DNA of 64,000 nt from Desulfobulbaceae bacterium BRH_c16a (lineage in GTDB: Bacteria; Desulfobacterota; Desulfobulbia; Desulfobulbales; Desulfocapsaceae), in NCBI GenBank assembly GCA_000961725.1, contig LADS01000058.1:62001-126000 (forward strand). The letters are read 5' to 3'. Numbering within the stretch: the first letter of the stretch is position 1; the number at the start of each line of letters is the position of its first letter. A model generated the notes under the pieces. That model saw only the letters and a list, made by a program, of their open reading frames with translations, was not told the origin of the DNA and made no database searches. The position numbers were made by a program, and so were the translations under genes. Below are positions 7,009 through 55,037 of this stretch, piece after piece.

Positions 7009-7018
7009 TTACATGTAA
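7009..7018. promoter_or_regulatory. Palindromic operator copy 1 (TTACATGTAA)
   Basis: A perfect 10-bp palindrome, followed on the + strand by AATTGATGACATTT. This resembles the operator/-35 arrangement at 8413-8434. No intact gene follows, so it may be a relic promoter of the decayed transporter. Confidence 0.55.
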
Positions 7019-7111
7019 AATTGATGACATTTGGACCCATCGTTCGGTTGATCTTCCCAATCGTCGCATAATGTATCGTATGATGGAATATGATACCAAC
7101 ATATGGAATGA

Positions 7112-7156
7112 ATAAAACACTGGTGCCATCACATGTCAAGGGCAATTTACATGCAA
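7112..7156 (-). promoter_or_regulatory. Leftward promoter with upstream operator (copy 2)
   Basis: Read leftward: TTGCATGTAA (7156-7147), 7 bases, TTGACA (7139-7134), 16 bases, TTTTAT (7117-7112). The same operator and -35 with the same 7-base gap occur before the cyclase genes at 37098-37054. It points at the dctM remnant and probably once drove that TRAP operon. Apart from this and operator copy 1, I see nothing in 6996-7411. Confidence 0.55.
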
Positions 7157-7411
7157 TTGCCGACTATTTCTTCAACAATATCCTATAAATTCAATAAAAT
7201 AGTACAAAATTGAAAAAATAAACGGTCATGCAGGAGTTACGCAACAATCCGATATTCGATTGTTCCGACATGCGGAACAACAGTTTATGTTGGGAAGGGT
7301 GGTTTCACGCATCAATTGAATTTTCAAAGGGGAGCTATAAAAGTAAAGCGACACATTGGAAACCAGCAAATCGACAGTTCACACAGCCGCTCACAGTTCG
7401 ATATGGAGCAA

Positions 7412-8230
7412 TCAGAAATACAGCTGCTTGGCGATCTTTTCCGCAGTGGACTTCAAGGGAAGTATTGCCGACTGCAAAAACTGATCGGTCAGCCGAAAGG
7501 CGGGCCCGGCCACCACTACTGCGGCTTTTGGTGGTCCTGCGAAGTTTTGAATGGGGACTGCCATCGCGTGGGTATCTTTGTATCGCTCCCCCCGGTCATA
7601 GGCGATTCCGGTTTGTTTGATTTCTTTCAGGAGCTTTCGGTATTCTTCCTTCGACACGATGGTGTTCTCGTTAAAATGCTCGAATTCCTGCTCGAGACAC
7701 AGTTCCAGAAAGACGGGATCGCTGTGTGACAGGATGACTTTGGCGCCGGCCGCGACATTGATCGGCACCTGTTCGCCCTGCTGAAAATTGAAACGAATAT
7801 GGCTTGGTCCTTCCACGTGCAGGGCGAGCACGACGTTGGTGCCGGTGAGCAACTCCAGAGCAACGCTTTCGCCGAGGAGCTGCGAGAGTTCGGTCAGGCA
7901 TGGCTGGGCGATAGCCAGCAGCTTGCTGTCGAGCGACCTGGTGGTAGCGTTGCCTATTTTAACTGCCGATCTGCCCAGCATATACTTTTTGGTGAGCGGG
8001 TTCTGCTGAAGAAAATGCGTTGCCACCAGTAGCTTGATCAGCCTGCTGGTGGTCGATTTATGCATTCCCAGCCTGATACTGAGGTCGGTCGTACCCATTT
8101 CGTTATTATATGGGGTAAAGGCCAACAGGATGTTGAGAGCTTTTTCTGCGGAAGAGCAACTGGCATCTTCATTTAGTTTTTTTTTCTTATCCGGCAAAGT
8201 GTCGACCCCGCATGCAGTAAATGTTCCCAT
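7412..8230 (-). CDS. IclR-family transcriptional regulator
   Basis: A 272-residue protein with an N-terminal winged helix (about residues 28-85: AEKALNILLAF, LSIRLGMHKSTTSRLIKLL). A C-terminal IclR effector domain (about 100-265) includes GESVALELL and DRGERYKDTHAMAVPI. IclR proteins bind small acids or aromatic catabolic intermediates and act as repressors or activators. It diverges from the Mo enzyme operon starting at 8722 with a 490-base intergenic region carrying operators. The most likely job is sensing a substrate or product of that pathway. The first 25 residues are unlike the family, so the true start may lie slightly downstream. Confidence 0.9.
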   Translation of the reverse strand: MGTFTACGVDTLPDKKKKLNEDASCSSAEKALNILLAFTPYNNEMGTTDLSIRLGMHKSTTSRLIKLLVATHFLQQNPLTKKYMLGRSAVKIGNATTRSLDSKLLAIAQPCLTELSQLLGESVALELLTGTNVVLALHVEGPSHIRFNFQQGEQVPINVAAGAKVILSHSDPVFLELCLEQEFEHFNENTIVSKEEYRKLLKEIKQTGIAYDRGERYKDTHAMAVPIQNFAGPPKAAVVVAGPAFRLTDQFLQSAILPLKSTAEKIAKQLYF

Positions 8231-8412
8231 AGGTGAGACCGGTTCGGGTACTCGCCTTCAAGTTGTTTCAGATACGAACATCCTGTCTCGTATGTTGCAA
8301 CTAAATAGAGTGTCGGCAACAATCTGTCAAGATTAATTCCTGTCTGTTTTTGGTAATAATTATCTAACATCTTGAAGTCATTGGATTTAATAAATTGTCC
8401 GTCAGGGTGAGA

Positions 8413-8456
8413 TTACATGTAAAAGCTCTTGACATGGGCGTGGAGCAGTGTATTAT
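8413..8456 (+). promoter_or_regulatory. Promoter of Mo enzyme operon A with operator copy 3
   Basis: TTACATGTAA (8413-8422), a 6-base gap, TTGACA (8429-8434), 16 bases, TATTAT (8451-8456). This gives a leader of about 260 bases before the gene at 8722. The leader holds a 7-bp hairpin with TAAT loop at 8539-8556 and repeated GCGTATTG elements. Confidence 0.75.
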
Positions 8457-8609
8457 TAGTTCCGTATGTCGGTATTGTATTTCAGTATGCGATACAAAAG
8501 CCATCAATCTTGCGTATTGCCCGATCTATACCAATGTGACCAGGGTAATCCCTGGTGATTGAGCATAAAGCAGTTTTGCAGGTTGGATTGAGCTGCAATG
8601 AAATGATCA

Positions 8610-8644
8610 GCGTATTGTTTACATGCAATAAGATACGCAATACG
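8610..8644. promoter_or_regulatory. Operator copy 4 inside a larger dyad
   Basis: TTACATGCAA (8619-8628) lies between GCGTAT (8610-8615) and ATACGC (8633-8638), giving a dyad centred close to the operator. GCGTATTG also occurs at 8512-8519 and inverted at 8638-8644. These repeats are candidates for the divergently encoded IclR protein. Position inside the leader suggests repression by roadblock or looping with copy 3. Confidence 0.5.
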
Positions 8645-8721
8645 TCGCATGGCATTATCGAGACAAAAGACGCGAGTATTTACAGCGGATAAAAGCAAGA
8701 AGGAAAATGCCGGGAGGTTAA

Positions 8722-11241
8722 ATGATGAGTGAACAAGTTTTTACCAACTGTACCAACGCCGGACCTGTCAGCGTATATGTAAAAGATGGTAAAGTAACCC
8801 GTATGCGGCCATTGGTCGCAGCAGAGGGCGATTTCAAGCCTTGGACCATTGAAGCGGACGGCAAAAAATATTCACCGCCGAAAAAATTCGCCCTGGCGCC
8901 CTATGTCCACGCCGACCGGCGCAGACTGTATTCGGAAGAGAGAATACAATATCCGATGCGACGGGTCGACTTTGACCCAAACGGCGAGCGCAACCCGCAA
9001 AACCGCGGGAAATCACCCTATGTCCGTATTTCCTGGGATGAAGCTTTGGATATCGTGTCTTCCGAGATTAAACGAGTCAAAGAGCAGTACGGCGGCTCGG
9101 CAATCAGTGGAATGACCTCCTCGCACCACAACTGGGGAATCGTCGGCTACAAGATGGGGCCTTTCGCCCGCTTCATGAATTTACTTGAATTCACCCCGGT
9201 CCTCGATAACCCCGACAGCTGGGAAGGCTGGCACTGGGGAGCGACGCATACCTACGGTTTCTACTGGCGGCTGGGCATGCCGGAACAGTACGACCTGCTC
9301 GAAGACTCCCTGAAAAACGCCGAGATGATCGTGCTGTGGTCGAACGACCCCGATTCTACCCGCGGCACCTACACCGGGCAGGAATCCGCACTCTGGCGTC
9401 AGTGGCTGAAGGAAAAAGGGGTGAAGATGGTTTTCATCGATCCTTTCCATAATTATACAGCAGGGGTCATGGAAGGCAAATGGATCGCTCCGCGGATCGG
9501 CACCGATACCTGCCTGGCCATGGCGATTGCCCATGTATGGATCACTGAAGACATCTATGACAAGGACTATGTGCGGGACCGGACCATCGGCTTCGACGAA
9601 TTCAAGAAATACGTCATGGGTGAGACCGACGGCCAGGCTAAAACTCCTGAGTGGGCGGAAAACGAATCCGGGGTGAAGGCAAGAGTCATCAGGGCGCTCG
9701 CCCGCGAGTGGGCGGCAAAGCGAACCGTGTTATCGGGCGGAGCCCGGGGTGGAGAAGGCGGAGCCTGTCGTCAGGCATACGGCACCGAATGGGCGAGGAT
9801 GATGGTCCTGCTCCAGGCCATGCAGGGACTCGGCAAGCCGGGCCGCACCATCTGGGGGACGACCATGGGAGCCCCTTCCGATGTCAATCACTGGTTCCCG
9901 GCCTACGCCGACCTGCAGGGCAGGGTTTCGACGGCGAAGATCGCCCATTTCATTCCGACCAACCCGACTAAGCAGCGACTGTACCGGCTTACTTTGCCCG
10001 ATGCTGTTCTGAGTCCGCCGGTCAGCTGGTACGGCGAGGGATTCTGCGGTCAGTCGCTCGAGCAGCAGTTCACCCATTTCGAGTATCCGATGCCCGGCTA
10101 TTCCGAGATTAAACTGTTCTATCGTTACGGCGGCTCTTTCATCGGCACCATGAGCGATACCACCAAATGGGTGAGGATGTACCAGAGTCCTAAGCTCGAG
10201 TTCGTTGTCAATCAGGACGTCTGGTTCAACGGCGAAACCCGGATGGCCGACATCATCCTTCCCGCCTGCAGCAACTTCGAGCGTGACGATGTCGGCGAAT
10301 GGGGGGCCTGCGGCGGCTACACCTGTCATGCCAGCAGCGGCTGCAACTACCGGATCGTCGTCCGCCAGCAGAAATGTATCGAACCCCTGTGGGAATCCAA
10401 ATCGGATTATGAGATTCTCACCCTGATCTCCGAACGACTCGGCATGAAGGAACAGTTCACCGACGGGCGGACGGAACTCGATTGGGTACAGGCATTTTTC
10501 GATTCTTCCGATCTGCCGAAACTCATCAGCTGGGAAGAGTTTAACAAAAAAGGCTATCACATCATCAATATTCCAGACGATTATAAGTCGACGCCGTCGC
10601 TCAGGTGGTTTGCCGAAGGACGGCCCTGCGATACCCCCGATACCAACAATCCCAAAAGAAAAACCGAGAAGGCGAAAGAACTAGGAACCTACAGCGGCAA
10701 GATCGAATTCGTCTCGGAGAGTCTAAAGTCGAAGTTCCCCGATGATGAGGAGCGGCCGATTTCGCCACGCTATATCCCGAGCTGGGAGGGGCACCGGAGC
10801 GAGCTGTTCAAGAGCTATCCCTTGCAGCTGCTGTCGCCCCATCCGCGATTTACCTTCCACTGTCACTATGACAAGCACACCGACTGGCTTGATGACATCC
10901 CGGTCCATCGCATCAAAAAAGACGGCTATGCCTGGTGGCCGGCACGGATCAATCCCGACGATGCCCGTCTGCGCAACATCCAGAGCGGCGATATCGTCCG
11001 ACTTCATAACGATAGGGCTAGCGTGCTCTGTATTGCGGTGGTCACAGAGCGGGTACGGCCCGGCGTGATCCACAGTTATGCCTCGTCGGCAAAATACGAT
11101 CCGCTCATCCCCGGCAACGCCGATTCACCGGATAAAGGCGGTTGCGTCAACATGCTCACGCCTTCGCGGATGGTTTCCAAGAATGCCCCGGGCATGACCC
11201 CGAATTCATGTCTCATTGAAATAGAAAAATGGGAGGTCTGA
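8722..11241 (+). CDS. Pyrogallol-phloroglucinol transhydroxylase-like Mo enzyme, large subunit
   Basis: An 839-residue DMSO-reductase-family protein. By recall it aligns throughout with the large subunit of Pelobacter acidigallici transhydroxylase: YPMRRVDFDPNGERNPQNRG, SSHHNWG, NPDSWEGWHWG, GKPGR, ADIILPACSNFER, LTPSRMVSK. The residues known there as catalytic His144, Asp174, Mo-ligand Ser175 and Tyr404 correspond to His135, Asp165, Ser166 and Tyr395, so chemistry on a polyphenol ring is plausible. There is no N-terminal Fe-S motif and no Tat signal, so it is cytoplasmic. GGGAGG precedes ATGATG; the second ATG (8725) is the better spaced start. The Fe-S subunit follows after 2 bases. The exact phenol substrate is unknown. 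Confidence 0.88.
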   Translation: MMSEQVFTNCTNAGPVSVYVKDGKVTRMRPLVAAEGDFKPWTIEADGKKYSPPKKFALAPYVHADRRRLYSEERIQYPMRRVDFDPNGERNPQNRGKSPYVRISWDEALDIVSSEIKRVKEQYGGSAISGMTSSHHNWGIVGYKMGPFARFMNLLEFTPVLDNPDSWEGWHWGATHTYGFYWRLGMPEQYDLLEDSLKNAEMIVLWSNDPDSTRGTYTGQESALWRQWLKEKGVKMVFIDPFHNYTAGVMEGKWIAPRIGTDTCLAMAIAHVWITEDIYDKDYVRDRTIGFDEFKKYVMGETDGQAKTPEWAENESGVKARVIRALAREWAAKRTVLSGGARGGEGGACRQAYGTEWARMMVLLQAMQGLGKPGRTIWGTTMGAPSDVNHWFPAYADLQGRVSTAKIAHFIPTNPTKQRLYRLTLPDAVLSPPVSWYGEGFCGQSLEQQFTHFEYPMPGYSEIKLFYRYGGSFIGTMSDTTKWVRMYQSPKLEFVVNQDVWFNGETRMADIILPACSNFERDDVGEWGACGGYTCHASSGCNYRIVVRQQKCIEPLWESKSDYEILTLISERLGMKEQFTDGRTELDWVQAFFDSSDLPKLISWEEFNKKGYHIINIPDDYKSTPSLRWFAEGRPCDTPDTNNPKRKTEKAKELGTYSGKIEFVSESLKSKFPDDEERPISPRYIPSWEGHRSELFKSYPLQLLSPHPRFTFHCHYDKHTDWLDDIPVHRIKKDGYAWWPARINPDDARLRNIQSGDIVRLHNDRASVLCIAVVTERVRPGVIHSYASSAKYDPLIPGNADSPDKGGCVNMLTPSRMVSKNAPGMTPNSCLIEIEKWEV

Positions 11242-11243
11242 TA

Positions 11244-12080
11244 ATGTCCCGATACGCCATATTAATAGATATCAAGAAGTGCAATGGTTGCTACAGCTGT
11301 TTTCTTGCCTGCCGGGATGAATATTACGGCAACGAATATCCGGAATATTCTGCCGCCCAGCCTCTGAACGGCCAGTTCTGGATGCAGGTTCAGGAAATTG
11401 AGCGGGGCGAGTACCCGAAGCCGAAAGTTGCCTATATCGCCAAGCCCTGCCTGCACTGCGAGAATGCGCCGTGCATGGATGCGGCAAAAGACGGCGCGAT
11501 CTATCGTCGCCCGGACGGCATCGTCATGATCGATCCGGTCAAAGCCAAAGGTCAGGAAGCCATCGTCAATGCCTGCCCCTACCGGGTGATCTTCTGGAAC
11601 GCCGAACTCCAGCTTCCCCAGAAATGCACGCTCTGCGCACATCGCCTGGACGACGGAGAGAAACTGCCGCGCTGCGTCGAGTCGTGCCCCACCGGCGCTC
11701 TGGTTTTCGGCGATCTCGACGATCCATCCAGTGAAATATCCCAACTTTCCGCGACACTGCCGGTTGAAGACCTTCATCCGCAATTTGCCACCAGACCCCT
11801 GGTGCGATATGTAGGGATTCCGCGGCGGTTTATCGCCGGCGAGGTGGTATTCAAGGATAAGGAAGGCGAATGCCCGGAGGGGGTGCAGGTGAGTTTGTCC
11901 GGAGGCGGATTGAATCTTGCCACGGCGACCGACCTCTTCGGCGATTTCGAATTTGAGGATATGAAGAAGAACGAGAAATACCAGGTGACGGTCAGCGCCG
12001 CAGGTTACAAAGACAGGATACTTGAATGTGTTACCCAGAAGGACGTCAACTTAGGCGAAATCGTCCTGGAGCGTAAATAG
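11244..12080 (+). CDS. Transhydroxylase-like Fe-S subunit with C-terminal Ig-like domain
   Basis: A 278-residue electron-transfer subunit. Cys motifs are CNGCYSCFLAC, CLHCENAPC and, near residue 145, CTLCAH with CVESCPTG. The fourth Cys of motif 2 is Ala, and the first three of motif 3 are absent (KGQEAIVNACP). Those four Cys would build one cluster, so three [4Fe-4S] clusters remain, as in the Pelobacter enzyme. Residues about 200-278 form a carboxypeptidase-regulatory/Ig-like beta domain (TATDLFGDFEFED). The ATG at 11244 is preceded by GGGAGG inside the large-subunit stop region. Confidence 0.88.
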   Translation: MSRYAILIDIKKCNGCYSCFLACRDEYYGNEYPEYSAAQPLNGQFWMQVQEIERGEYPKPKVAYIAKPCLHCENAPCMDAAKDGAIYRRPDGIVMIDPVKAKGQEAIVNACPYRVIFWNAELQLPQKCTLCAHRLDDGEKLPRCVESCPTGALVFGDLDDPSSEISQLSATLPVEDLHPQFATRPLVRYVGIPRRFIAGEVVFKDKEGECPEGVQVSLSGGGLNLATATDLFGDFEFEDMKKNEKYQVTVSAAGYKDRILECVTQKDVNLGEIVLERK

Positions 12081-12510: not shown

Positions 12511-12520
12511 TTGCATGTAA
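12511..12520. promoter_or_regulatory. Operator copy 5 (TTGCATGTAA)
   Basis: It lies in the 72-base gap between the cupin and SDR genes, suggesting the SDR-to-thiolase genes can also be transcribed on their own. No good -35 is visible beside it, so a full promoter here is unproven. Confidence 0.5.
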
Positions 12521-24196: not shown

Positions 24197-24508
24197 TCTG
24201 GGTCTCCCGGTTATTATAAATTTTAGAGTTATTACCATTAACTAAGACGAACTACGATATGCTCCTCCCTGTACGTATGAGTTAAAAATTAATGGGGCTG
24301 CACAGTGTAACAAGCACCCCATGTTAATGCTTTAGACGGTACACAATATATGTATACATGATTTGTCTTCACACAGCAACCCCTTTGGTTCAATTGTCAG
24401 ACCAACGATTGATGTTCAGAATAATGCGAATATTTTTAAAGATTAAGTCGGCCAGCCGAAAAATCCTTGACACGAGCGGTCACGTTGCGTGCAATATGCA
24501 CTCATATA

Positions 24509-24518
24509 TTGTATGCAA
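24509..24518. promoter_or_regulatory. Operator-like palindrome (TTGTATGCAA)
   Basis: A near-match to the shared palindrome with one changed base, lying 312 bases upstream of dctP of system 1. It sits in a stretch with further TGCAATATGCA symmetry. It is the weakest member of the set. Between 24197 and 24500 I see nothing else. Confidence 0.35.
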
Positions 24519-27881: not shown

Positions 27882-30800
27882 ATGACAAGACGATGGATAG
27901 ACAGGGCGTTGAACGGATCAGAGACTCTGGCCACAATAATGATGCAATGGTTGTTATTTGCTTTATACCTGGCGATGAGGGCAAAAAATCAGTTCAGCCC
28001 CTCGTTCCACCATCGTTTACAGGAAAAAGACCTGACCGCGCAGATCAAGATCCGCGGTGACTCCTGCGGCCGCACCTTTATCATCAAAAACGGCACGCTC
28101 AGTTCTACCAGGGAAATCACCGCCACGCCCGATGTGGTCATGATCTTCACGGATGCAGCGACGGCGGTGAAATTGATGCTTGCGCCGCGCGATTATCTGA
28201 AGCAGATCAACGCGATGAAAAATTTTCGGGTGGATGTGCAGGGGCCGGACGAACAGGTCGTCTGGTTCATGCAGACCCTGAAAAGTCTGGAGAGTTTCTC
28301 CGATATTCCGAAATACGGCATCGCCATGGGTGATGGAATAACCCGCTATGTCAACAATACCAACGGCGGGCCGGTGTTCGTCTATGTCCGGGACGGCAAA
28401 ATCCTGCGCATCACCCCGATCGAATTCGACGAGACCGATGGCCGGTCGTGGACCATCCATGCCCGCGGCAGATCGTTTACCCCGCCCCGCAAAGGCACGG
28501 TCAATCCTTATGTTTTCGCTCTGAAATCGCTGATCTATTCGAAAGACCGCCTTCTCTATCCGATGAAACGGGTCGATTTCGATCCGAACGGCGAGCGGAA
28601 CTGCGCAAATCGGGGGATTTCCGGTTATGAGCGGATAAGCTGGGATGAAGCCCTCGACATCGTCGCCGGCGAAATAAAAAGAGTCAAGACGGAACACGGC
28701 CCCGGCGCGATCATGAACGGCGGCGGGTCCCACCACACCTGGGGCAATATCGGCTACTGGCTGAGCGCCAAAACCCGGTTCATGAACTCCATCGGCTCAA
28801 GCCACATGATTCACAATCCCGACAGCTGGGAGGGCTGGTACTGGGGCGCCATGCATCACTGGGGCAACAGTATCCGCAACGGCGCGACCGACACCTACGG
28901 CACCGTCGAAGACTGCCTGAAAGAGGCGGAGATGATTGTCTTCTGGTCGAGCGATCCGGAATCGACCAGCGGCGTCTACGGCGCCTTCGAGGGCACGGTG
29001 CGGCGTCAGTGGGCCAAGTCGCTCGGCATCAGGATGGTCCATATCGACCCTTATTACAATCATACCGCGGCGCTCCTCGGCGGCAAGTGGATCGCACCGA
29101 GGCCGGACACCGGCAACGCCATGGCGCTGGCCATCGCCTATGTATGGATTGTCGAAGATCTTTACGATAAAGAGTATGTGCGGGAGCGAACCACGGGGTT
29201 CGACAAGTGGCGCGAATATATCCTCGGCAAAGACGACGGGATCCCGAAAAATCCCGAATGGCAGGAGCCGGAAACCAATGTTCCGGCGCGAATCGTGCGG
29301 TCTCTCGCCCGCCAGTGGGGCAGCCGCAAGACCTATCTGTCGCCGGGCGGTCTGGTCGGTTTCGGCGGGGCCTGCCGCTGCGCCACCGGCATCGAATGGG
29401 CCAGATCCATGGTCTGCCTGATGGCCATGCAGGGCCTGGGCAAACCCGGGGTGAATATGGGCTGTCTGCAGCAGGGGGCGCCGCTTGATACCAATTTCTA
29501 TTTCCCCGGCTATGCCGAAGGAGGCCTTTCCGGCGATCTCGATTACACCGGTCTGCGGGTGAGCATGTACCAGCGCATGCCGCAGCTGCCGTCGATGAAC
29601 TCTGTCTCGCAGATGATTCCCCGGCTGCGCATCCCGGAAGCCATTCTCAATCAGGCCTGCGAGGGCTATCCAACCGATCCCAAAAGCATCGAGGGTCAGT
29701 TTAAAAAAATCATATATCCTGCGCCCGGCCATTCGCCGGCGAAAATGTACTATAAATACGGCGGCTCCCATTTCGGCACCATGGCCGACTCCAACCGCTA
29801 CGCCAGGGCGTATCGCAGCGACAACCTGGAATTTGTCGTCAATCAGTCGATCTGGTTTGAAGGGGAGGCCAAATTTGCCGACATCCTTTTGCCCGCCTGC
29901 ACCAATTTCGAGCGCTGGGATATCGGCGAGACCGCCAATTCAGGCGGCTACAGTCACCAGCAGTTTATCCAGTGGAATCACCGTGTTATTACCATGCAGC
30001 ATAAATGCATCGAACCGCTGGGCGAGTCGCGCTCCGATTATCAGATCTTTCTCGACCTGGCTCAGCGTCTCGGTCTCGGCACCCTGTTTTCGGAAGGGAT
30101 GACCGAACTGGGCTGGTGCCGGAGGCTGTTTGAGGCGAGCGATCTGCCGACGGTCACCTCCTGGCGCAAATTCCTGCGCAAAGGATACTACGTGGTTCCG
30201 GCTCCGAGCGAAGAAAACCGAGCGCCGGTATCGTACCGCTGGTTTGCCGAGGGAGGCAAAAAAAATGTGCCGGAACTGTCGCCGCTGCCCTCGGACTATA
30301 CCAAGGAATGGCGAAGGGGACTGCAGACCCAGTCGGGCAAGCTTGAGTTCGAATCGTCGAGCCTGAAACGATTTGCCCCGGATGATCCGGAGCGTCCGCC
30401 GCTGCCGACCTTCATACCGTCATGGGAAGGGCATCATGACCGCGAATTGTATGAAAAATATCCGCTGAATCTGATCTCGCCCCATCCGCGCTACAGTTTT
30501 CATACGATGTTCGACGGCAAAGACGCCATTGTCAACGATGTGAAGGATCACCGGGTGCTGATCGACGGCTGGTACTACTGGATTGTGAGGATCAATCCTG
30601 AGGATGCGGAGCGGCGCGGTATTACCGGCAACAGTCTGGTCAAGATATTCAACGATCGCGGCGAGGTGATCTGCGCCGCCCATGTCACCGACCGGCTGCC
30701 GCCGGGCACCGTGCAGTCGCCGGAAGGCTCAGCCATCTACCAGCCGATAGGCGAACCTGGGAACTCGGCGGACAGGGGAGGATGTATCAACCTTTTAACC

Positions 30801-30884: not shown

Positions 30885-30887
30885 CGG

Positions 30888-31739
30888 ATGAAAAAATACT
30901 GCTTTGTCATAGATGTGGCCAAATGCGAGAACTGCAACAACTGCTTTCTCTCCTGCAAGGATGAACATTGCGGCAACGACTGGCCAGGCTACAGCCAGGC
31001 CCAGCCCCTGCACGGGCATCGCTGGATGAATATTCTGACCAGGGAAAGAGGAGCATTTCCCTTTGTCGATGTCGCCTATCTGCCGAAGCCCTGCGGCCAC
31101 TGCGACGACGCACCCTGCCTGCGGGCGGCAGCAGATGGCGCGGTCCATAAGCGCGCCGATGGGATAGTGCTGATCGACCCTGTGAAAGCGAAAGGGAGGA
31201 AGACCCTCGTCGGCGCCTGCCCCTATGGCGTGATCTGGTGGAATGAGACGCTGCAGCTCCCGCAAAAATGCACTTTCTGCGCCCATCTGCTCGATGGGGG
31301 CTGGCACCAGCCGCGATGCGTGCAATCCTGTCCGACCGGCGCACTGTCCATCCTGCATGCGACGGATGAGGAACTGGCAGGAATTGTGCAAGCCGAGGGA
31401 CTGGAGGTGCTTGATTCGGGCAGTACTGCGACCAGGCCCAGATGCTACTATAAAAATCTGTACCGTTTCACCGGTGACTGCATCGTCGGCAGCGTCGCTG
31501 CCACTGTGGGAGATATTACCGAATGTGTGATCGGCGCGAACGTCAGCCTGCACGAAGGAAGCAAAAGCCTGGGTGAGCGGGTAACTGATGAATTTGGTGA
31601 CTTCAAGTTCGACAGGCTGCCGACGGGCGTTGCCGACTATGAGTTGACGATTGCCCATGGCGACCGTCAAGCAACTCGGCTTAAGGTCAGTAAAAAAGAG
31701 AGCCTGTCACTCGGCACGATCTGGATTGAGGAGTTGTAG
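30888..31739 (+). CDS. Fe-S subunit of second transhydroxylase-like enzyme
   Basis: A 283-residue protein paralogous to the one at 11244. It has CENCNNCFLSC, CGHCDDAPC and CTFCAH with CVQSCPTG. The fourth Cys of motif 2 (Ala) and the first three of motif 3 (KGRKTLVGACP) are again absent, giving three [4Fe-4S] clusters. A C-terminal Ig-like domain (about 200-283) ends in TIWIEEL. It starts 3 bases after the large subunit. The loss pattern shared with operon A and the Pelobacter enzyme marks true transhydroxylase relatives. Confidence 0.88.
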   Translation: MKKYCFVIDVAKCENCNNCFLSCKDEHCGNDWPGYSQAQPLHGHRWMNILTRERGAFPFVDVAYLPKPCGHCDDAPCLRAAADGAVHKRADGIVLIDPVKAKGRKTLVGACPYGVIWWNETLQLPQKCTFCAHLLDGGWHQPRCVQSCPTGALSILHATDEELAGIVQAEGLEVLDSGSTATRPRCYYKNLYRFTGDCIVGSVAATVGDITECVIGANVSLHEGSKSLGERVTDEFGDFKFDRLPTGVADYELTIAHGDRQATRLKVSKKESLSLGTIWIEEL

Positions 31740-31859: not shown

Positions 31860-31887
31860 TTGACAAAGAAAAATTTACATGTAATTT
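31860..31887 (+). promoter_or_regulatory. TRAP system 2 promoter with overlapping operator
   Basis: TTGACA (31860-31865), 16 bases ending in TTTACATG, TAATTT (31882-31887). The palindrome TTACATGTAA (31875-31884) covers the end of the spacer and the -10, as expected for repression. The remaining leader to 32306 is about 420 bases with no further gene seen. Confidence 0.75.
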
Positions 31888-35376: not shown

Positions 35377-36159
35377 TCAAAGACCTGTTTCGAAACGGAA
35401 TGTCTGATCCGGGTCGATGACCGCCAGAACCCGCACGGTACATCCTTCACCGCCCTGCCAGCGCCAGGGAAAGGCCATGAAGGTGCAGCGTTTGCCGGTA
35501 ACCTTGTTGAGGTCGCCGCCGACGTTCTCGATGCCGGGGATGCCGCCTTTTACCATGAGGGTTTTGTGACCGGCTTCCCAGTCGGGAAAATCCTCTTTGG
35601 GATCACGGCCGAAGTACTGCTTATATTCCTCTATCAGATGGGGGTGGGTCGGTCCCAGGCCATGGTCGACGAGTTTGGTGGCCATCGGATGATCGTTTGC
35701 CTGGACATCATATCCTACCATTTTGACTTTCCGGTCAACCAGCCATTGCGCGCCTTCCCGGTAAATCCCCGGCGAATAGGCATAGTATTCGTCGGTGTCG
35801 GCCATTTTGGTGTGCATGCCGGTATTGATCATGACGATATCCCCCTCCCGGATTTGGGGGCGGGCGTTCTCAAGATCCTCGGCGGTGATAACCTCCCATT
35901 TCTTTTTCGGAATGGAGACCGCGACACCGGTACCGAAAAATCGCCACAGTGGATATCCCATCAGGCACGGCGTATTCTCGGTGACGTGCAGAGGCGCGTC
36001 GACATGGGTGCCGCGGTGCATGATCCCTTCAAATTCAGTCTGATAGAAACCGTCTTTGGCATGGAATTTTTTGACATGTACATTGATTCCCGGAGTAGAC
36101 GGCCATTCCGGCATGTGGTGGCCCCACGGCTGACTTAAATTGTATATCTGCAGGCTCAT
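35377..36159 (-). CDS. Cyclase-family (PF04199) metal-dependent hydrolase
   Basis: A 260-residue protein of the kynurenine formamidase/isatin hydrolase superfamily. The metal motif HRGTHVDAPLH (near residue 48) has the full HxGTHxDxPxH pattern, and DIVMINTG and GCTVRVLAVID are typical. Members hydrolyse cyclic amides, lactones or diones, usually with Mn or Zn. It lies 21 bases after a paralogue. In a Mo transhydroxylase region it is a reasonable candidate for opening a reduced ring such as a cyclic 1,3-dione. That substrate is an inference. Confidence 0.87.
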   Translation of the reverse strand: MSLQIYNLSQPWGHHMPEWPSTPGINVHVKKFHAKDGFYQTEFEGIMHRGTHVDAPLHVTENTPCLMGYPLWRFFGTGVAVSIPKKKWEVITAEDLENARPQIREGDIVMINTGMHTKMADTDEYYAYSPGIYREGAQWLVDRKVKMVGYDVQANDHPMATKLVDHGLGPTHPHLIEEYKQYFGRDPKEDFPDWEAGHKTLMVKGGIPGIENVGGDLNKVTGKRCTFMAFPWRWQGGEGCTVRVLAVIDPDQTFRFETGL

Positions 36160-36180
36160 TGTGTTCTCCTTACCATTGGC

Positions 36181-36993
36181 TTATTCCGATTTGCCCGCTT
36201 CAATGCGGCAGGTTCCGCTTGGATCGGTCAGGGCCACAAAACGGACCTGACAGGCATCGCCCTGTTTCCAGTTCCATGGGGTTGCCGCGAGCGTAGCCCG
36301 TCTGCCAAGCAGCGTATTGACATCACCGCCGACCTGTTCAATGGTCGGTATCCCAGCTGCGAGAATGGTTTTATGGGCAATATTCCACTCCGGATGCTCT
36401 TTTTTGGGATCAAGCCCTGTCTCGGTTGCATACTTGGCGGGGAGACGGTTCATCAGCGGCCCGCCGCGGTGTGGGCCGAAAGAGGTGGCAAGCGGATGGT
36501 CGATCTGCGGAGTATCGATTGCCACCAGTCTGCAGCCTTTATCCACCAGCCATTGTGCACCGTCTTTCGACAGGCCCGGAGCTTCGCCGAAGTATTCGAG
36601 ACTGTCGGAATACTTGCTGTGCCAGCCGGTGACAATGACGACAAAATCGCCTGGGCGAACCTCGGGCCGGGCGGTACCGAGATCTCCGGCCGTCACCAGT
36701 TCCCAGCGTTTTTTCGGAATATCGAGGATGACCCCGTTGCCGAAAAAATGGTCGAGAGCTATGTCGGCTGCCCCGGCCCCTTGCTGGATCAGATGCAGCG
36801 GGGTGTTCATATGGGTACCGGAATGCATCACCATTTTCAGCCGTTGCGCCATCACGCCATGCTGTGCGTGTTTGACTGAACGGTACATGATCACATCGGC
36901 ATCGCCCGGCATGGAAGGGGCGTTATGCCCCCATACATGGCTGAGTTCCACCAGTTGCAGCCCGCTGTACGGGTCTTTAGTCACTGTTGTCAT
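36181..36993 (-). CDS. Second cyclase-family hydrolase, altered metal motif
   Basis: A 270-residue paralogue of the next gene. Its metal motif reads HSGTHMNTPLH, with Asn where the family has Asp; the three His are kept. Two different cyclases may form a hetero-oligomer or act on successive substrates, or this one may have changed specificity. The start at 36993 (after AGGAGAGAAC) is taken because the longer frame would begin upstream of the predicted transcription start. Confidence 0.85.
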   Translation of the reverse strand: MTTVTKDPYSGLQLVELSHVWGHNAPSMPGDADVIMYRSVKHAQHGVMAQRLKMVMHSGTHMNTPLHLIQQGAGAADIALDHFFGNGVILDIPKKRWELVTAGDLGTARPEVRPGDFVVIVTGWHSKYSDSLEYFGEAPGLSKDGAQWLVDKGCRLVAIDTPQIDHPLATSFGPHRGGPLMNRLPAKYATETGLDPKKEHPEWNIAHKTILAAGIPTIEQVGGDVNTLLGRRATLAATPWNWKQGDACQVRFVALTDPSGTCRIEAGKSE

Positions 36994-37053
36994 ACTGTTC
37001 TCTCCTCTAGACAATGTTCCATATGTTGAAACAGCAGTGTTGGAATATGAAAC

Positions 37054-37098
37054 ATTGTACAATCCTCGGAAAACATGTCAAGAATATTTTACATGCAA
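37054..37098 (-). promoter_or_regulatory. Promoter of cyclase operon with upstream operator
   Basis: Leftward: TTGCATGTAA (37098-37089), 7-base gap, TTGACA (37081-37076), 16 bases, TACAAT (37059-37054). It has the same operator and -35 with the same 7-base gap as the relic promoter at 7156-7112, and the first 10 bases before and after -35 are nearly the same. Confidence 0.8.
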
Positions 37099-49610: not shown

Positions 49611-50441
49611 CTAGCGATTGCCTCCCATGTCCATGGCAATGTCGCCAAGGCCGCGATCGATATCGGTCGTCAGTCCGGCGATGGTTTTGGTCACGCCGTC
49701 TTTTTTGAAGGTAAGGGTGTAGCTGCGGTTATCCGGCAGTTCTTTCAGCCAGAAGTCACCGAAGTTGCTGGTTGATTCGGTGAAAGTCTCGCCGGAGGCT
49801 TCGTCTTGCAGGGTACATTCTGCGCCGATGATGACTTCCTTTGCCGCCGGATCATATAAAGTGCCGGCCACAAACTTTTTCGGCAGACCCTTGTAGTAGA
49901 GCCGCGATTTGGTCCCGGCCGCCGGGTTGATCAACTCGGCGGCTTTGATGAAATCGCTGAAGTCTTCCTCTTCGCCAAAACGCAGAGCCTCGGTCGGGCA
50001 TTGATCGACACAGCGCGGCACGGTCCATTCCGGATCATTGTCGAGAAGGTGGGTGCAGGCGGTGCATTTTTGGGCGATATTGAGCTGCTCGTTCAAAAAA
50101 ATGACGTTGTGCGGGCAGGTATCGACACAGAGTTTGCAGCCGGTGCATTTCACCGGATCGATGATCACAATGCCGTCGTCGCGTTTATAGATTGCCTCGG
50201 CCTTGCAGTCGGCGATACACGGCGCATCATCGCAGTGGTGACACAGCTGCGGGATATACGTGACTTTGACATGCGGGACATGGCCCCGGACCTGCTCGGA
50301 CAGGCCGATCCAGAACTGGCCGGTATCGGGCTGCGGTTTGGCATAGGGGGTCCAGTCATTGCCGACATGCTCGTCTTTACAGGCGATCTGACAGCAGTAG
50401 CAGCCATTACACCGGGAGAGATCAACGGTAAATACTTTCAT
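49611..50441 (-). CDS. Fe-S subunit of third Mo enzyme, four clusters
   Basis: A 276-residue protein related to those at 11244 and 30888 but with every Cys motif intact: CNGCYCCQIAC, CHHCDDAPCIADC, CTGCKLCVDTCP and CTACTH with CVDQCP. It should hold four [4Fe-4S] clusters. The C-terminus (about 200-276) is the same Ig-like domain (ESTSNFGDFWLKEL). Its ATG overlaps the large-subunit stop (ATGA). Full ligation suggests electrons leave the enzyme to a partner, unlike redox-neutral transhydroxylases. Confidence 0.88.
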   Translation of the reverse strand: MKVFTVDLSRCNGCYCCQIACKDEHVGNDWTPYAKPQPDTGQFWIGLSEQVRGHVPHVKVTYIPQLCHHCDDAPCIADCKAEAIYKRDDGIVIIDPVKCTGCKLCVDTCPHNVIFLNEQLNIAQKCTACTHLLDNDPEWTVPRCVDQCPTEALRFGEEEDFSDFIKAAELINPAAGTKSRLYYKGLPKKFVAGTLYDPAAKEVIIGAECTLQDEASGETFTESTSNFGDFWLKELPDNRSYTLTFKKDGVTKTIAGLTTDIDRGLGDIAMDMGGNR

Positions 50442-53056
50442 GATTTTTTACCTCCGTCAACAATCCAGGCATCAACACGAAGGCCTGCTGCCGGATCATA
50501 CTTTCGTGAAAACGCGTCGGGAAATTCCCGTCGCCACTTATCCATCTCTTCGCCGCTTACTTTCTGCACCTCGACCAGATAGCCGCCGCCGATCTGGCCG
50601 ACGCAGTTTTCCGAAGTCACGGCGCCGGGGGTAATGGTGTTGATGGCGCCGCCGCGCTCGATTTCGCCGGTCTTGATCGGATCGTGTCTGGCCCCGTGAT
50701 CGACATATGCGACTCCCGGACGCACTCTTTCAGTGATGTATGCCCCTGTCAGAACAATTCCGCGTTCGTTGAAGACCTTGACGATGTCACCGGATTGTAT
50801 GCCGCGCTTTTCCGCCTCCGAAGGATGCAGCCAGCACGGTTCGTATTTATAGCCGTCCGGGCCGGTCACCTTCATGGTCGGCGTTTCCCGGGTCCAGGTG
50901 ATGTCGTCGCACTGGGCGTGTACACGCCAGCGGCCGTGGTTTGACATGATCAGAAGAGGGAACATCTTGGCGCGATGACTGGTGAGTCGCTCGTCATGAT
51001 TGTGGCTTTTCTCGACCCATTTGGGAATCGGCCCTCTTTCCTTGTCGTCCGGATATGCTTTGGCTAGAGCCTCGGAATAAAACTCGAGCTTGCCGGTCGG
51101 GGTATTGAGCTTGTGTTTTTCAGGATCCAGGTAAAACTCACGGAATCCCGGCGGATCGTTTTCCCAGTCCGGGTGCGTGTTGTACATCCAGTAGCCTTTT
51201 TCCTTCAGTTGTTCCCAGGACACCAGTTTTTCTCCGCCCATATAGCCCCAGATGGCTTTCTGCAGATCCGCGGTGGTTTTCCCTTCGGTCATCTGCTGTT
51301 CCATTCCCTCGAACTGCTTGGCTACTTCGAGCACGCACTGGGCGTCGCTTTTCGATTCGCCGACCGGTTCGATGGCTTTTTCGGTGAGCATGATGTTCGG
51401 CTGCATCGTGCCCTGGCGAATGTTGGTGACGATGTCGTCGACTTCCATGTGAGTATTGGCGGGCAGGACGATGTCGGCATAAAGACAGTCGTTTTCGAAC
51501 CACGGGTGCTGAGCGACGAAAAATTCGATTTCCGGGCTGCGCATCGCCAGTTCGGTCTCATGGCCGAAATTCCAGCACGTGATGCGGCACGGGCTGTCGG
51601 CCCAGATCATATGGATTCTCGAACCTTTTTCTTCTTTTGAGATCGGGAAAGTGTACTCGACGAACTGGTCGTGGGTGAGGGCGTTCTGGGCTCCGGTGCC
51701 CCGGAACTTGATCGGTTCGGTGCCCATAATGGCATTCTGGATCAGGGTCTTCGGAATAACCTGCTGCTGCCAGGCACTTACCGCACTGAGAACCGGCAGG
51801 GCGATCCGCTCCTCGATTTCCGGATTCCAGAAGAATGTGCCGCCGAGGCCCTCAGCCCTCGGCAGGCCGAAATAGGTGAACTGATGCTGATGCACGCCCG
51901 GTCCGCCGAGACCCTGCATGCCGAGCAGAATACACTCGAGACGGGCGGGTTCGTGGGAGAAGGGTCCGCGAATGAAACCGCCGCCGAAATAGTGGGCGAT
52001 AGAGGTAGTTTTCGCGGCAAATTCGCGGGCCAGTGCCTTGATCGTCCAGACCGGCACGCCGCATTTCGGCGAGGCCCACTCCGGCGTTTTAGGTACAGCG
52101 TCTTCCTTGCCGAGCACGTAATCGGCTACTTTATCCATACCGACGGTATGGGTTTTTACGTATTCCTTGTCATAGGTTCCTTCGGTCAGCCACATATAGA
52201 TGATGGCCAGCTGGAGGGCGGCATCGGTATTGGGCAGAACCGGAATCCACTTGTCGGCGTGGATCGCCGCGCCGTAGTTGCAGTCCGGACAGATATAGAC
52301 CTGTTTGATGCCGACTTCGGTAAAATAGTAGCACAGCCGGCTGGCAAACTGGCCGACAAATCCCCAGGGAGTTGTTTCCGGGTCACAGCCCCAGAACAAA
52401 ACCATGTCGGAATGCTCGATGGTATCTTTGACGATATTGGCGGCAGGATACATGATGCCCTGGGCACCCTGGCCCCAGACATGTTTGGCGCCCCAGTACC
52501 AGCCTTCCCAGCTGTCGGGGTTTCGGACCTGGAGGGTAAAACCGCCGAGGTACTCGAGGAGGACGCCCGGGTGGCCGTGCGGGGTATTGATGGTTTTGCA
52601 TTCGCCGTGGCCGTCGCCCTGCATCAGGATGGCATTAGGGCCGTACTCCTTGTGCACTCTCCTGATCTCGTCTGCAATGAGCTTTGATGCTTCGTCCCAG
52701 GAGATTCGCACAAACTTGCTCTTGCCGCGGTTCTGGGGGTTGCGCTCGCCGTTTGGGTCCCAGTCCACTCTTTTCATAGGAAAAGGAACGCGGTTTGGCG
52801 AGTAGACGCGCTTTTTGTAGGCGAGAGAGAAAGGGCCGGGCAGAGATTTCCAGGTGGGCTCAATAGTCTTGCCGTTTCGTTCCATTTTCCACTGGCGAAC
52901 CTCTTCCTTCTTGTATTTCCACCCATACTGCATCGGGCGCACACGGACAATCTTGCCATCTTTGACATCTACCATTCCTTCGGCCCCACCTCCGAAGTAA
53001 CCGCCGAGTCCCAGGGATCTCAAGACTGTTTTGTCTTTTGTTTTGATTGGTTTCAT
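50438..53056 (-). CDS. Divergent transhydroxylase/resorcinol-hydroxylase-like Mo enzyme, large subunit
   Basis: An 872-residue bis-MGD protein. It keeps FPMKRVDWDPNGERNPQNRG and RNPDSWEGWYWG, so Asp and the Mo-ligand Ser are present. The SHH motif is replaced by GDGHGE, and the FPGY Tyr region reads TYFGLPRAEG, so the transhydroxylase Tyr is not evident. That argues for another reaction, for example ring hydroxylation as by the resorcinol hydroxylase RhLS, a family relative. There is no Tat signal or N-terminal Fe-S motif. The ATG at 53056 follows AGAGGAGA; the frame open to 53194 overlaps operator sequence. Confidence 0.82.
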   Translation of the reverse strand: MKPIKTKDKTVLRSLGLGGYFGGGAEGMVDVKDGKIVRVRPMQYGWKYKKEEVRQWKMERNGKTIEPTWKSLPGPFSLAYKKRVYSPNRVPFPMKRVDWDPNGERNPQNRGKSKFVRISWDEASKLIADEIRRVHKEYGPNAILMQGDGHGECKTINTPHGHPGVLLEYLGGFTLQVRNPDSWEGWYWGAKHVWGQGAQGIMYPAANIVKDTIEHSDMVLFWGCDPETTPWGFVGQFASRLCYYFTEVGIKQVYICPDCNYGAAIHADKWIPVLPNTDAALQLAIIYMWLTEGTYDKEYVKTHTVGMDKVADYVLGKEDAVPKTPEWASPKCGVPVWTIKALAREFAAKTTSIAHYFGGGFIRGPFSHEPARLECILLGMQGLGGPGVHQHQFTYFGLPRAEGLGGTFFWNPEIEERIALPVLSAVSAWQQQVIPKTLIQNAIMGTEPIKFRGTGAQNALTHDQFVEYTFPISKEEKGSRIHMIWADSPCRITCWNFGHETELAMRSPEIEFFVAQHPWFENDCLYADIVLPANTHMEVDDIVTNIRQGTMQPNIMLTEKAIEPVGESKSDAQCVLEVAKQFEGMEQQMTEGKTTADLQKAIWGYMGGEKLVSWEQLKEKGYWMYNTHPDWENDPPGFREFYLDPEKHKLNTPTGKLEFYSEALAKAYPDDKERGPIPKWVEKSHNHDERLTSHRAKMFPLLIMSNHGRWRVHAQCDDITWTRETPTMKVTGPDGYKYEPCWLHPSEAEKRGIQSGDIVKVFNERGIVLTGAYITERVRPGVAYVDHGARHDPIKTGEIERGGAINTITPGAVTSENCVGQIGGGYLVEVQKVSGEEMDKWRREFPDAFSRKYDPAAGLRVDAWIVDGGKKS

Positions 53057-53169: not shown

Positions 53170-53179
53170 TTACATGCAA
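53170..53179. promoter_or_regulatory. Operator copy in module C leader (TTACATGCAA)
   Basis: It lies downstream of the leftward promoter at 53260-53233 and about 115 bases before the large-subunit start. As a second site it may help repression together with 53236-53245. Confidence 0.6.
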
Positions 53180-53232: not shown

Positions 53233-53260
53233 ATTTTACATGAAACACATGCCGTGTCAA
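53233..53260 (-). promoter_or_regulatory. Leftward promoter of third Mo enzyme with overlapping operator
   Basis: TTGACA (53260-53255), 16 bases ending TTTCATG, TAAAAT (53238-53233). The imperfect palindrome TTACATGAAA (53236-53245, + strand) overlaps the -10 and spacer end in the same phase as at 31860-31887. Confidence 0.75.
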
Positions 53261-53344
53261 TATCTTTTTCTCAGTCAATCGCCGAGATATACTTGAGAAA
53301 AAAATGGAATTGCCACTGCGGGATGACCCGGATGTCTGTAATCA

Positions 53345-53354
53345 TTGCATGCAA
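53345..53354. promoter_or_regulatory. Operator copy (TTGCATGCAA)
   Basis: It lies within the 12-bp palindrome ATTGCATGCAAT at 53344-53355, just beyond the stop of the IscA-like gene and about 85 bases upstream of the module C promoter. It is the only fully symmetric TTGC version. Confidence 0.6.
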
Positions 53355-53376
53355 TTATCCTTGCCCTCCGATAGCT

Positions 53377-53889
53377 TTAAAGCCATGCTGCTTTACGCTG
53401 TTTTCGCCGCGATCTGATCTTTAATCCGGTCGGGCATGGAGCCTCGCAGGTAACGCAGACTCCGGTACAGCGCGATCCGCCCCTGGTGCCGCACTGGAAG
53501 GCGCAGGTGCCGCAACCTGTCAGCGGAGAGATTCCTTTGCCGCTCAGCCGGAAGGCAAAGCCGTCGCTGTCTATTTTTATCGGGCCGTATTGTTTTAAAA
53601 TTCTCCGCTCGACCACACAGGTGAAGCCATCTCTTTTAAAAACCGCATCGGCAGGCTGGAGGGCTTCCGGGCTTATGCCGAAGGATTGCATGCCGCATCC
53701 GCCGATCGTGAGAAAGATGCGGATCGGCAGGGTGTCCTTGCCCTGCAGGTACTCCCTGAGCAGCAGCGCCGCCTTGGGGGTAACCTCAAGGCCGGATACT
53801 TCACGTTCAACGGAGTATTCCAGGGCAGGCAGGAGCGACGAGCATTGCTCTGCCGGTATTTCAGGAATAACCGTGGCTGATTGGGTCAT
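53377..53889 (-). CDS. IscA/HesB-like protein with Cys-rich tail
   Basis: A 170-residue protein. Residues about 32-130 follow the IscA/HesB fold (LEVTPKAALLLREYL, IRIFLTIGGCGMQSFGI, FTCVVERRIL, GFAFRLSG). The C-terminal part carries nine Cys in about 30 residues (CGTCAFQCG, CTGVCVTCEAPC). The tail could bind an extra Fe-S or zinc site. It is transcribed after the MoeA-like gene, 25 bases downstream, and may help supply clusters or sulfur to the Mo enzymes. I know no named family with this exact tail. Confidence 0.7.
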   Translation of the reverse strand: MTQSATVIPEIPAEQCSSLLPALEYSVEREVSGLEVTPKAALLLREYLQGKDTLPIRIFLTIGGCGMQSFGISPEALQPADAVFKRDGFTCVVERRILKQYGPIKIDSDGFAFRLSGKGISPLTGCGTCAFQCGTRGGSRCTGVCVTCEAPCPTGLKIRSRRKQRKAAWL

Positions 53890-53914
53890 GGCGCTCGCCT
53901 CCTTGGCCTCGTGT

Positions 53915-54943
53915 CTATTTACCGAAGGGACAGACGGGATACGTACATGTCCTGCACTGGAGGCAGAGCCCGCCGTGGCCGAGTCCCGCTATCTCCTTTC
54001 TGGTTATCTTTTCCCCGGCGAGAACCCGCGGAAAGACAAGATCGAGGACGGTGCGGGAGGCGTACATCCCGCAGGCCGGAATGCCGAGTACCGGAATGTC
54101 GCCAAGGTAGGCGACCATGAACATCGCCCCGGGGAGCACCGGCGTACCGTAGACGATATCCTTAACCCCGGCCTGCTGCAGCGCGTGGCGGGTGCGGTCG
54201 TCCGGATCGACGCTCATTCCTCCGGTGGTGATAAGAAGATCTGCGCCCCGGCTCACCAGGCCTGTGGTTGCCTCGGCAATCATCGTGTCGTCATCCGGGA
54301 GAAAAACGACATCCAGCACCTCTCCTCCAAGCTCGGCCACTTTCTTTGTGATAATCGGTTCGAATTTGTCTTTGATCAGGCCGGAAAAAACCTCGTTGCC
54401 GGTTATCATGATGCCGACCTTCGGTTTTCGCAGGGGGACGACGGTCAACACATGGTTCTTGGCTTCAAGGGCTGCGGCAACGGCGGCTTCGACTTTTTTC
54501 CGGGCCACCACCAGCGGAATGGCTCTGGTGGCTGCAACCGTATCTCCGGTTTTGACCATGGTATTGTCGTGCCGGGTCGCACACATTACTTCGCCATGCA
54601 TGTTGAACGCCATGAGGGCTTCGATATCGACCTTAAAAAGCCCGTCCCTGGTCGCCTTCAGGTTGATTTTGCCCTCGCGCGGTGCGTCCTGCCAGCCCAC
54701 TCCCGGTCCACAGAGCGCAGTGGCTAAAGCCTCGGCGGCTTCGTCTTCGTGCATTTCGTCAGGCGTGGTTCGAATAATAAAGAGATTATTTTTGCCGAGC
54801 CGGCGCAGATGGTCGAGGTCGTCCTTTTTCAGGATATGGCCTTTATGGAACGCGGCCCCTTTAAATTCGCCGGGGCGGATCTCGGTAATATCGTGAGCCA
54901 GCGGGAAACCGACTGCTTCTTCCAGAGTGACGACCTGTTTCAT
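53915..54943 (-). CDS. MoeA-like molybdopterin-binding protein with Cys-rich C-terminus
   Basis: A 342-residue protein. The central MoCF-biosynthesis domain (about 170-310) has VGIMITGNEVFSG, LLITTGGMSVDPDDRTRHAL and GTPVLPGAMFMVAYLGDIPVLGIPACG, the MPT-binding fold of MoeA/MogA. An N-terminal segment recalls MoeA subdomains (EAVGFPLAHDIT), though it is shorter than MoeA (about 410). A CLQCRTCTYPVC tail is added. It likely inserts or handles molybdenum cofactor for the bis-MGD enzymes of this region. Its promoter shares the operator at 55013. Confidence 0.82.
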   Translation of the reverse strand: MKQVVTLEEAVGFPLAHDITEIRPGEFKGAAFHKGHILKKDDLDHLRRLGKNNLFIIRTTPDEMHEDEAAEALATALCGPGVGWQDAPREGKINLKATRDGLFKVDIEALMAFNMHGEVMCATRHDNTMVKTGDTVAATRAIPLVVARKKVEAAVAAALEAKNHVLTVVPLRKPKVGIMITGNEVFSGLIKDKFEPIITKKVAELGGEVLDVVFLPDDDTMIAEATTGLVSRGADLLITTGGMSVDPDDRTRHALQQAGVKDIVYGTPVLPGAMFMVAYLGDIPVLGIPACGMYASRTVLDLVFPRVLAGEKITRKEIAGLGHGGLCLQCRTCTYPVCPFGK

Positions 54944-55009
54944 GGTTTTCTTTCCTCCGGGACTGGTGCGGGTGAAAATGAACGAGATTTTTTACAATCA
55001 TTGTATGAT

Positions 55010-55037
55010 ATATTGCATGTAATTATCGCGGTGTCAA
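55010..55037 (-). promoter_or_regulatory. Leftward promoter of moeA-like gene with overlapping operator
   Basis: TTGACA (55037-55032), 16 bases ending ATTACATG, CAATAT (55015-55010). The palindrome TTGCATGTAA (55013-55022, + strand) covers the spacer end and -10. A second palindrome TACAATCATTGTA lies at 54992-55004. The remaining stretch to 55378 shows no gene. Confidence 0.7.

Follow-up and report, generated by a model that had tools for sequence, protein, structure and literature searches.

The window analysed here (C13:62001-126000, that is 64,000 nucleotides at positions 62,001–126,000 of contig LADS01000058.1 in the 6.51-Mb, 72-contig genome of Desulfobulbaceae bacterium BRH_c16a) holds a gene island with three pyrogallol-hydroxytransferase-like molybdenum (Mo) enzyme modules, in which the palindromic operator TTRCATGYAA recurs at promoters in two geometries. 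The observations are well explained by a real, conserved local regulon of a GntR-family regulator with an FCD domain, overlaid by an IclR-family regulator; the arrangement is new in detail and ordinary in kind. Sequence-based support comes from the motif, its geometry and conservation, the gene neighbourhood, and a second motif that splits the promoters into two classes.

The exact motif occurs ten times in the window (starts at 7009, 7147, 8413, 8619, 12511, 31875, 37089, 53170, 53345, and 55013) against 0.20 occurrences expected, and none of 100 shuffles reached ten. The site at 53236 (TTACATGAAA) has one mismatch; sites with at most one mismatch number 20 against 5.75 expected. The initial annotation had listed these ten sites and 53236 as intergenic, and all 11 are so under our gene model. 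Three of them (12511, 37089, and 53170) sit within raw open frames that the model trims (SDR start at 12571, AthL3 start at 53056) or rejects (a plus-strand frame over the cyclase gene Cyc2). The motif is found at 29 places in the whole 6.5-Mb genome, compared with six for a reversed-pattern control, and from the 19 sites outside the window a density of 0.19 per 64 kb would be expected. These outside sites look like background because eight of the 19 lie in open frames of at least 250 aa and none is phased with an exact TTGACA in the manner of the classes described below; only two of the eight are coding according to the window-trained caller, and in three of the 19 a TTGACA with one mismatch occurs at or close to a class offset. 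The genome-wide comparison of intergenic and coding copies that had been proposed speaks for the motif only in part. One outside site, TTACATGTAA, stands between another FCD-type GntR gene, whose helix retains the usual Arg (VRTA), and a divergent operon with a LarA-like gene and a TRAP binding-protein gene (L032:3828-4851, C72). Across 82 unique sites from the window and its relatives, close ones included, the core is preceded by A and followed by T in 73% of cases each, which gives the extended form ATTRCATGYAAT. A search of the open-licence literature found no description of the TTRCATGYAA motif or its regulon.

Six of the 11 window sites are phased with an exact TTGACA, three in each geometry, and the spacings reported in the initial annotation were reproduced at all six. 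In class 1 the TTGACA begins 16–17 bases past the operator start, leaving a gap of 6–7 bp, and is followed at 16 bp by TATTAT, TACAAT, or TTTTAT. This class comprises the AthL1 operon promoter (operator 8413..8422, plus strand, exact and conserved in relatives; -35 TTGACA 8429-8434, 16-bp spacer, -10 TATTAT 8451-8456), the leftward promoter of two cyclase genes (37089..37098, minus strand; TTGACA 37081-37076, TACAAT 37059-37054), and an orphan leftward promoter with no gene after it (7147..7156, minus strand). In class 2 the TTGACA begins 15 bases ahead of the operator, whose CATG closes a 16-base spacer. Here we find the TRAP transporter promoter (31875..31884, plus strand; TTGACA 31860-31865), the AthL3 promoter with the one-mismatch operator (53236..53245, minus strand; TTGACA 53260-53255), and the promoter of the MoCF/IscA-like operon, divergent from gntR (55013..55022, minus strand; TTGACA 55037-55032).

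Both geometries are real and recurrent in relatives. Among the 82 unique sites, an exact TTGACA lies within 70 bp in 51 cases: 14 at +16/+17 (class 1), 27 at -17 to -11 (class 2, with 15 of these at -15), four at -27, and six elsewhere. A control set of 320 other W-W-N-N-CATG-N-N-W-W sites, which includes some degenerate operators, has TTGACA in 58 cases, 11 of them at -17 to -11 and two at 15 to 18, while the reversed-pattern control comprised a single site, too few to inform. Seven one-mismatch hybrids were taken from position weight matrix (PWM) hits at AthL1 or GntR/MoCF promoters. TTGACA stands at -15, -16, or +16 in each of them, and at -15 in every one of five AthL3 variant operators (L128, L133, L134, L135, and L138). 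Three of five further exact sites beside IclR orthologues are in phase (not those of L150 and L155). The geometry tracks the promoter, with AthL1 and the cyclases in class 1 and TRAP and MoCF in class 2. The offset at the MoCF promoter drifts from -17 to -11 across relatives, and the TRAP site of Desulfofustis has shifted to -27, yet still lies over the -10.

GntR orthologues were identified in 11 of 56 relatives (best E 4e-98 or better), and IclR orthologues in the same 11. In the stretches examined, an exact site matching position 8413 stands ahead of AthL1 in G010, G011, G012, G014, G015, G025, and G028, a one-mismatch hybrid takes this class 1 position in G003 and G005, and a second exact AthL1 site, comparable to the leader site at 8619, is present in G011, G015, and G028. 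Exact sites also precede AthL3 in seven relatives (G009, G010, G011, G012, G014, G015, and G028) and the TRAP operon in G003, G010, G011, G015, G025, and G028, with an identical -15 phase at TRAPp2 in G003, G010, G011, G015, and G028. At gntR/MoCF, one-mismatch hybrids such as TTGTATGTAA, with TTGTA half sites, are retained in G001, G003, and G005. The operator had been proposed to link all three Mo modules, which holds for modules 1 and 3; module 2 has no operator at its own promoter in the window, and the site at 31875 serves the TRAP transporter genes behind it. Two relatives (G011 and G015) do have a site at the AthL2 promoter, between the sigma-54 activator gene and AthL2. Genome-wide motif counts in relatives are a weak test, as the background often resembles the reversed-pattern control (e.g., 12 vs. 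20 in G014). The gntR promoter itself shows TTGACA and a half-site-like ATGTAA in some relatives, which we considered insufficient for claiming a self-operator.

A second operator, roughly GTTYCRTATGTYGRAAC, went unremarked in the initial annotation. In 10 genomes the IclR–AthL1 intergenic footprint consists of TTRCATGTAA or a hybrid, 6–7 bp, TTGACA, 16–17 bp, a TATTAT-like box, and then a palindrome near GTTCCGTATGTCGGTAT, and the iclR-facing side of the same regions carries GTTCCGTATGTTGGAAC, likewise directly after a -10. A PWM was built from ten iclR-facing sites (10 genomes), chosen by eye, and run on independent promoters. It scored at least 7.8 in 20 of 21 class 1 promoters (L138 being the sole miss) and above 6.1 in none of 35 class 2 promoters, the 99% null being 6.4. 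The class 1 matches lie downstream of the -10, 18 of 21 in one of two fixed places. The best new window matches are at the cyclase promoter (37016..37032, plus strand, 24.8, the top score in the window) and the orphan promoter (7262-7278, 22.7), both outside the training set. AthL1 has one putative IclR site directly downstream of its -10 (8459..8475, plus strand, 15.7, also outside the training set) and a second copy at 8479..8495 (minus strand, 11.4). The training site by the iclR start (8285..8301, plus strand, 24.3) has a counterpart in 10 of 10 IclR–AthL1 intergenic regions. One match, at 44627, lies inside a gene and scores 15.2. Among six further loci of IclR relatives with 70–79% identity (L149-L154), five reach a score of at least 12 (all except L154).

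Because the second palindrome separates the two sets of promoters in this way, class 1 promoters appear to answer to two regulators: class 1 would belong to GntR plus IclR, and class 2 to GntR alone. The notion of a single regulator acting in two fixed geometries, put forward in the initial annotation, is therefore supported for TTRCATGYAA, with the evidence favouring GntR, and has to be amended for class 1. The second operator is likely read by the IclR-family protein (7412..8230, minus strand), which scores above cut-off for both HTH_IclR (45.1 bits) and IclR_C (105.8 bits); at a threshold of E 1e-60, a family-wide search gave matches in 20 genomes out of 93. A second IclR paralogue, 59–60% identical to that of the window, was observed in G001, G003, G005, and G009 (L108, L103, L097, and L106), where it is divergent from an SDR-cyclase-cyclase operon. 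Its intergenic regions lack TTRCATGYAA and match the second motif weakly, a possible case of specificity drift.

The most likely reader of TTRCATGYAA is the FCD-type GntR protein (55379..56029, plus strand), not IclR. Both of its Pfam domains score above cut-off (GntR 45.4 bits, FCD 60.2 bits). Residues D130, H134, H178, and H200 are invariant in 14 aligned GntR sequences, and we take them to be the ligand-site residues of the FCD domain (Asp-x3-His ... His ... His). The ligand domain of FadR, by comparison, is not FCD. The closest solved chains are 7xp0, 3fms, and 3sxy, and the best PDB match reaches 64 bits. All orthologues caught by our helix pattern have the recognition helix SRTPVNNAL (18 distinct strings); the pattern also caught other FCD proteins, which have SRTPVRSA (five strings). 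R43, the G-reading Arg and counterpart of FadR Arg-45, is invariant. N47-N48 correspond to FadR Arg-49/Glu-50, listed in Table 1 of PMC4494728 as a backbone contact and its salt-bridge partner, and the idea that the NN pair marks loss of the G-reading arginine was rejected, as R43 is kept according to the same table. The FadR-subfamily consensus (TKGT/ACMA boxes, NyGTM-N0-1-KACNy; PMC4494728) was not found in our operators: the 82 unique sites read TTRC-AT-GYAA, and 53236 is one mismatch off.

The assignment draws on loci where the two regulators part company. A scan based on the GntR alignment found 31 loci, spread across two sulfate-reducer orders; 24 of them have at least one exact site (45 sites in total). 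Among 17 genomes tested, five gave no IclR hit at E 0.001 (G061, G062, G063, G065, and G066). The motif adjoins gntR in G063, G065, and G066 (Desulfamplus magnetovallimortis), where the 12-mer occurs 3, 2, and 10 times genome-wide vs. 0, 0, and 1 for the control; G061 and G062 have no site within the examined gntR locus. At the Desulfobacula locus L144, in a genome whose IclR relatives are remote (27% or less), AthL1 keeps a GntR-type site, and neither a class 1 promoter nor the second motif was found there. The motif thus follows GntR, since gntR-side sites occur in IclR-less genomes and L144 keeps its site without the second motif. That IclR should instead read TTRCATGYAA is very improbable, even though iclR adjoins four sites (7009, 7147, 8413, and 8619) and both regulators are found in the same relatives: a better candidate motif stands in front of iclR, the motif adjoins gntR where IclR is missing, and the intergenic regions of the 59–60% paralogue have no exact site. 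A third regulator would be a highly unlikely reader as well. The sigma-54 activator (26136-27686) lies inside the island, with the G011 and G015 sites between it and AthL2, and a protein encoded elsewhere might be proposed; however, the sites occupy sigma-70-type (TTGACA) promoters, and several motif-bearing GntR loci (e.g., L145, L146, and L147) show no relative of the sigma-54 activator in the examined stretch.

We consider it fairly probable that GntR reads TTRCATGYAA and represses class 2, while class 1 is a two-key promoter shared with IclR. At class 2 (TRAP transporter, AthL3, and MoCF/IscA-like operon) bound GntR would cover the spacer and -10 and exclude RNA polymerase; an effector that occupies the FCD metal site, probably a phenolic or a carboxylate, would release it. 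This is the textbook position of a steric repressor, and as the initial annotation had suggested, it looks like a repressor site. At class 1 (AthL1 catabolic operon and cyclase operon) GntR would sit 6–7 bp ahead of a perfect -35, with IclR on and just past the -10, in fixed phase, so that the promoter may open only once both regulators are satisfied. IclR most likely represses here because its site covers the start region, and it would also autoregulate. From an estimated position near -47, GntR might act by looping to the AthL1 leader site at 8619 (also present in G011, G015, and G028). We prefer double repression because a perfect -35 with a near-consensus -10 should need no activator, and one effector acting with opposite signs across a catabolic programme seems unlikely. 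We infer the pairing of proteins with motifs, the repression of class 2, the effectors, and the double repression of class 1, the last being the weakest step.

Several observations weigh against this picture. A regulator near -47 is no obvious repressor, and FadR of Escherichia coli activates from upstream of -35 (PMC9329746). Five of the 11 window sites (7009, 8619, 12511, 53170, and 53345) fit neither geometry when an exact TTGACA is required. The 82 sites and the orthologue counts, drawn in part from close relatives, are not independent. Exact sites are missing from GntR loci L141 and L142 (genomes without IclR) and from L148. L151 has the second motif without a GntR-type site, L150 has an exact site without an in-phase TTGACA, and the more distant IclR orthologues (52–57% identity; L155-L157) show the second motif at a score of at least 12 in none of three loci. 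As GntR and IclR occur in the identical 11 of 56 relatives, presence alone cannot separate them, and their co-occurrence was dropped as a discriminator.

The sign of GntR at class 1 is where other explanations compete most directly. A dual GntR that represses class 2 and activates class 1, where its position upstream of -35 would let it help polymerase to overcome repression by IclR, is a possibility to which we give limited weight. E. coli FadR represses at -10/+1 and activates from upstream of -35, with iclR among the activated genes (PMC9329746). The class 1 sites fit this placement rule, and their 6–7 bp phasing is kept from the AthL1 to the cyclase promoters. Yet a TTGACA and a good -10 box are already in place at these promoters, opposite signs at two apparently catabolic gene sets with one effector are physiologically implausible, and the second operator in the AthL1 leader (four genomes) suits repression. 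We regard it as unlikely that GntR binds class 1 with little effect and leaves IclR alone in control. In favour of this view, G003 and G005 have a one-mismatch hybrid as their class 1 site, but the same hybrid stands at gntR/MoCF of both genomes in the exact class 2 phase, and the site therefore seems to drift with the regulator and not to decay.

The island probably serves the breakdown of plant phenols in a sulfate-reducing bacterium. It contains Mo module 1 (AthL1 and AthS1, 8722..12080, plus strand), module 2 (AthL2 and AthS2, 27882..31739, plus strand), and module 3 (AthL3 and AthS3, 49611..53056, minus strand), each with a pyrogallol-hydroxytransferase-like large subunit and an iron-sulfur (Fe-S) small subunit, as judged from domain matches, structure-database matches, and, for module 3, also the gene model. 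The large subunits are mutually 49, 34, and 33% identical, all have PF21423 (AhtL-like first domain) and the molybdopterin domains PF00384 and PF01568, and match pyrogallol hydroxytransferase (PDB 4v4c) with 925, 1028, and 391 bits, AthL3 being the most distant. Fer4_11 was found in all three small subunits, each of which (11244-12080, 30888-31739, and 49611-50441) ends in a C-terminal carboxypeptidase-regulatory-like domain, weak in the second. Pfam and protein-family searches further identified the regulators (IclR, sigma-54 activator, and FCD-type GntR), two TRAP systems, an SDR (12571-13338), a CoA-ligase, an enoyl-CoA hydratase, a thiolase, an MFS transporter, the two PF04199 cyclases Cyc1 and Cyc2 (35377..36993, minus strand), and an IscA/HesB-like gene with a MoCF_biosynth (molybdopterin-binding) gene (53377..54943, minus strand). 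No riboswitch, for example of the Mo-cofactor type, matched Rfam within the window at gathering scores. In G028 (L081-L082), AthL2, TRAPm2, and MFS are each split in two pieces, by frame breaks or sequencing errors.

The remaining operators fall around the same genes. The second AthL1 operator lies in the leader (8619..8628, plus strand), one site precedes the SDR gene with no promoter in phase (12511..12520), one stands between the AthL3 promoter and gene (53170..53179), and one upstream of that promoter (53345..53354). The orphan promoter (7060-7156, minus strand) is a complete class 1 promoter that drives no recognisable gene. It has a further operator without an exact in-phase -35 (7009..7018) and, besides the putative IclR site at 7262, two more within 7073..7109 (PWM 14.6 and 11.3, outside the training set), and is perhaps left over from a rearrangement. 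An open stretch at about 6840-6990 (plus strand), by eye a truncated TRAP DctQ-like membrane subunit, adjoins it. Two one-mismatch operators 24 bp apart (24485-24518) have a TTGACA 18 bp ahead of the first and no clear target gene. In G011 (L117:1737-3436) a class 1 promoter with a putative IclR site precedes the gene of a TPR protein with 48% identity to the product of window gene 18302-19573, which itself has no such site.

The analysis groups the island's transporters, its Mo-cofactor gene, and its three pyrogallol-hydroxytransferase-like Mo enzymes into a single predicted regulon whose sites are named and matched with likely regulators, which gives a handle on when anaerobes turn on polyphenol breakdown. 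The comparison shows that the second operator sets the two promoter types apart, and the altered operator and helix are well suited to a study of the GntR recognition code. More speculatively, an FCD-GntR clade of sulfate reducers may have changed its DNA code (SRTPVNNAL with TTRCATGYAA, without GT...AC boxes) and been wired with IclR into two-key AND-gate promoters for anaerobic polyphenol breakdown. GntR, placed upstream of -35, and IclR, placed at the transcription start, would then act together, possibly through contact across the polymerase site.

Compared with known FCD-type GntR regulators (7xp0, 3fms, 3sxy), the protein shares the GntR helix-turn-helix, the FCD domain, and local catabolic targets, while the TKGT/ACMA boxes described for the FadR subfamily are absent from TTRCATGYAA. 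IclR-type catabolic regulators such as BhcR (NCBIfam, 114 bits) and PcaR/PcaU (97 bits), both matches below cut-off, are likewise divergent from a presumed target operon with a palindrome in between; here the putative IclR site lies on the -10/start, a repressor position, next to a GntR operator. The E. coli FadR regulon resembles our system in the placement of the sites for a single regulator of the GntR family, on -10/+1 at some promoters and upstream of -35 at others, and in its tie to an IclR-family regulator. It differs in that FadR activates from upstream sites, controls opposing pathways, and is not autoregulated (PMC9329746), whereas here both operators occur within one promoter. The combination of an SDR with PF04199 cyclases resembles the phloroglucinol pathway of C. 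scatologenes. Close counterparts are the pyrogallol-phloroglucinol transhydroxylase (4v4c), through the large-subunit matches given above, and the phloroglucinol cluster of that organism, which likewise has PF04199 cyclases, an MFS transporter, and a regulator nearby (PMC10470551). The present island differs from these in its three Mo modules, its CoA-ligase/thiolase operon, and its IclR-GntR pair.

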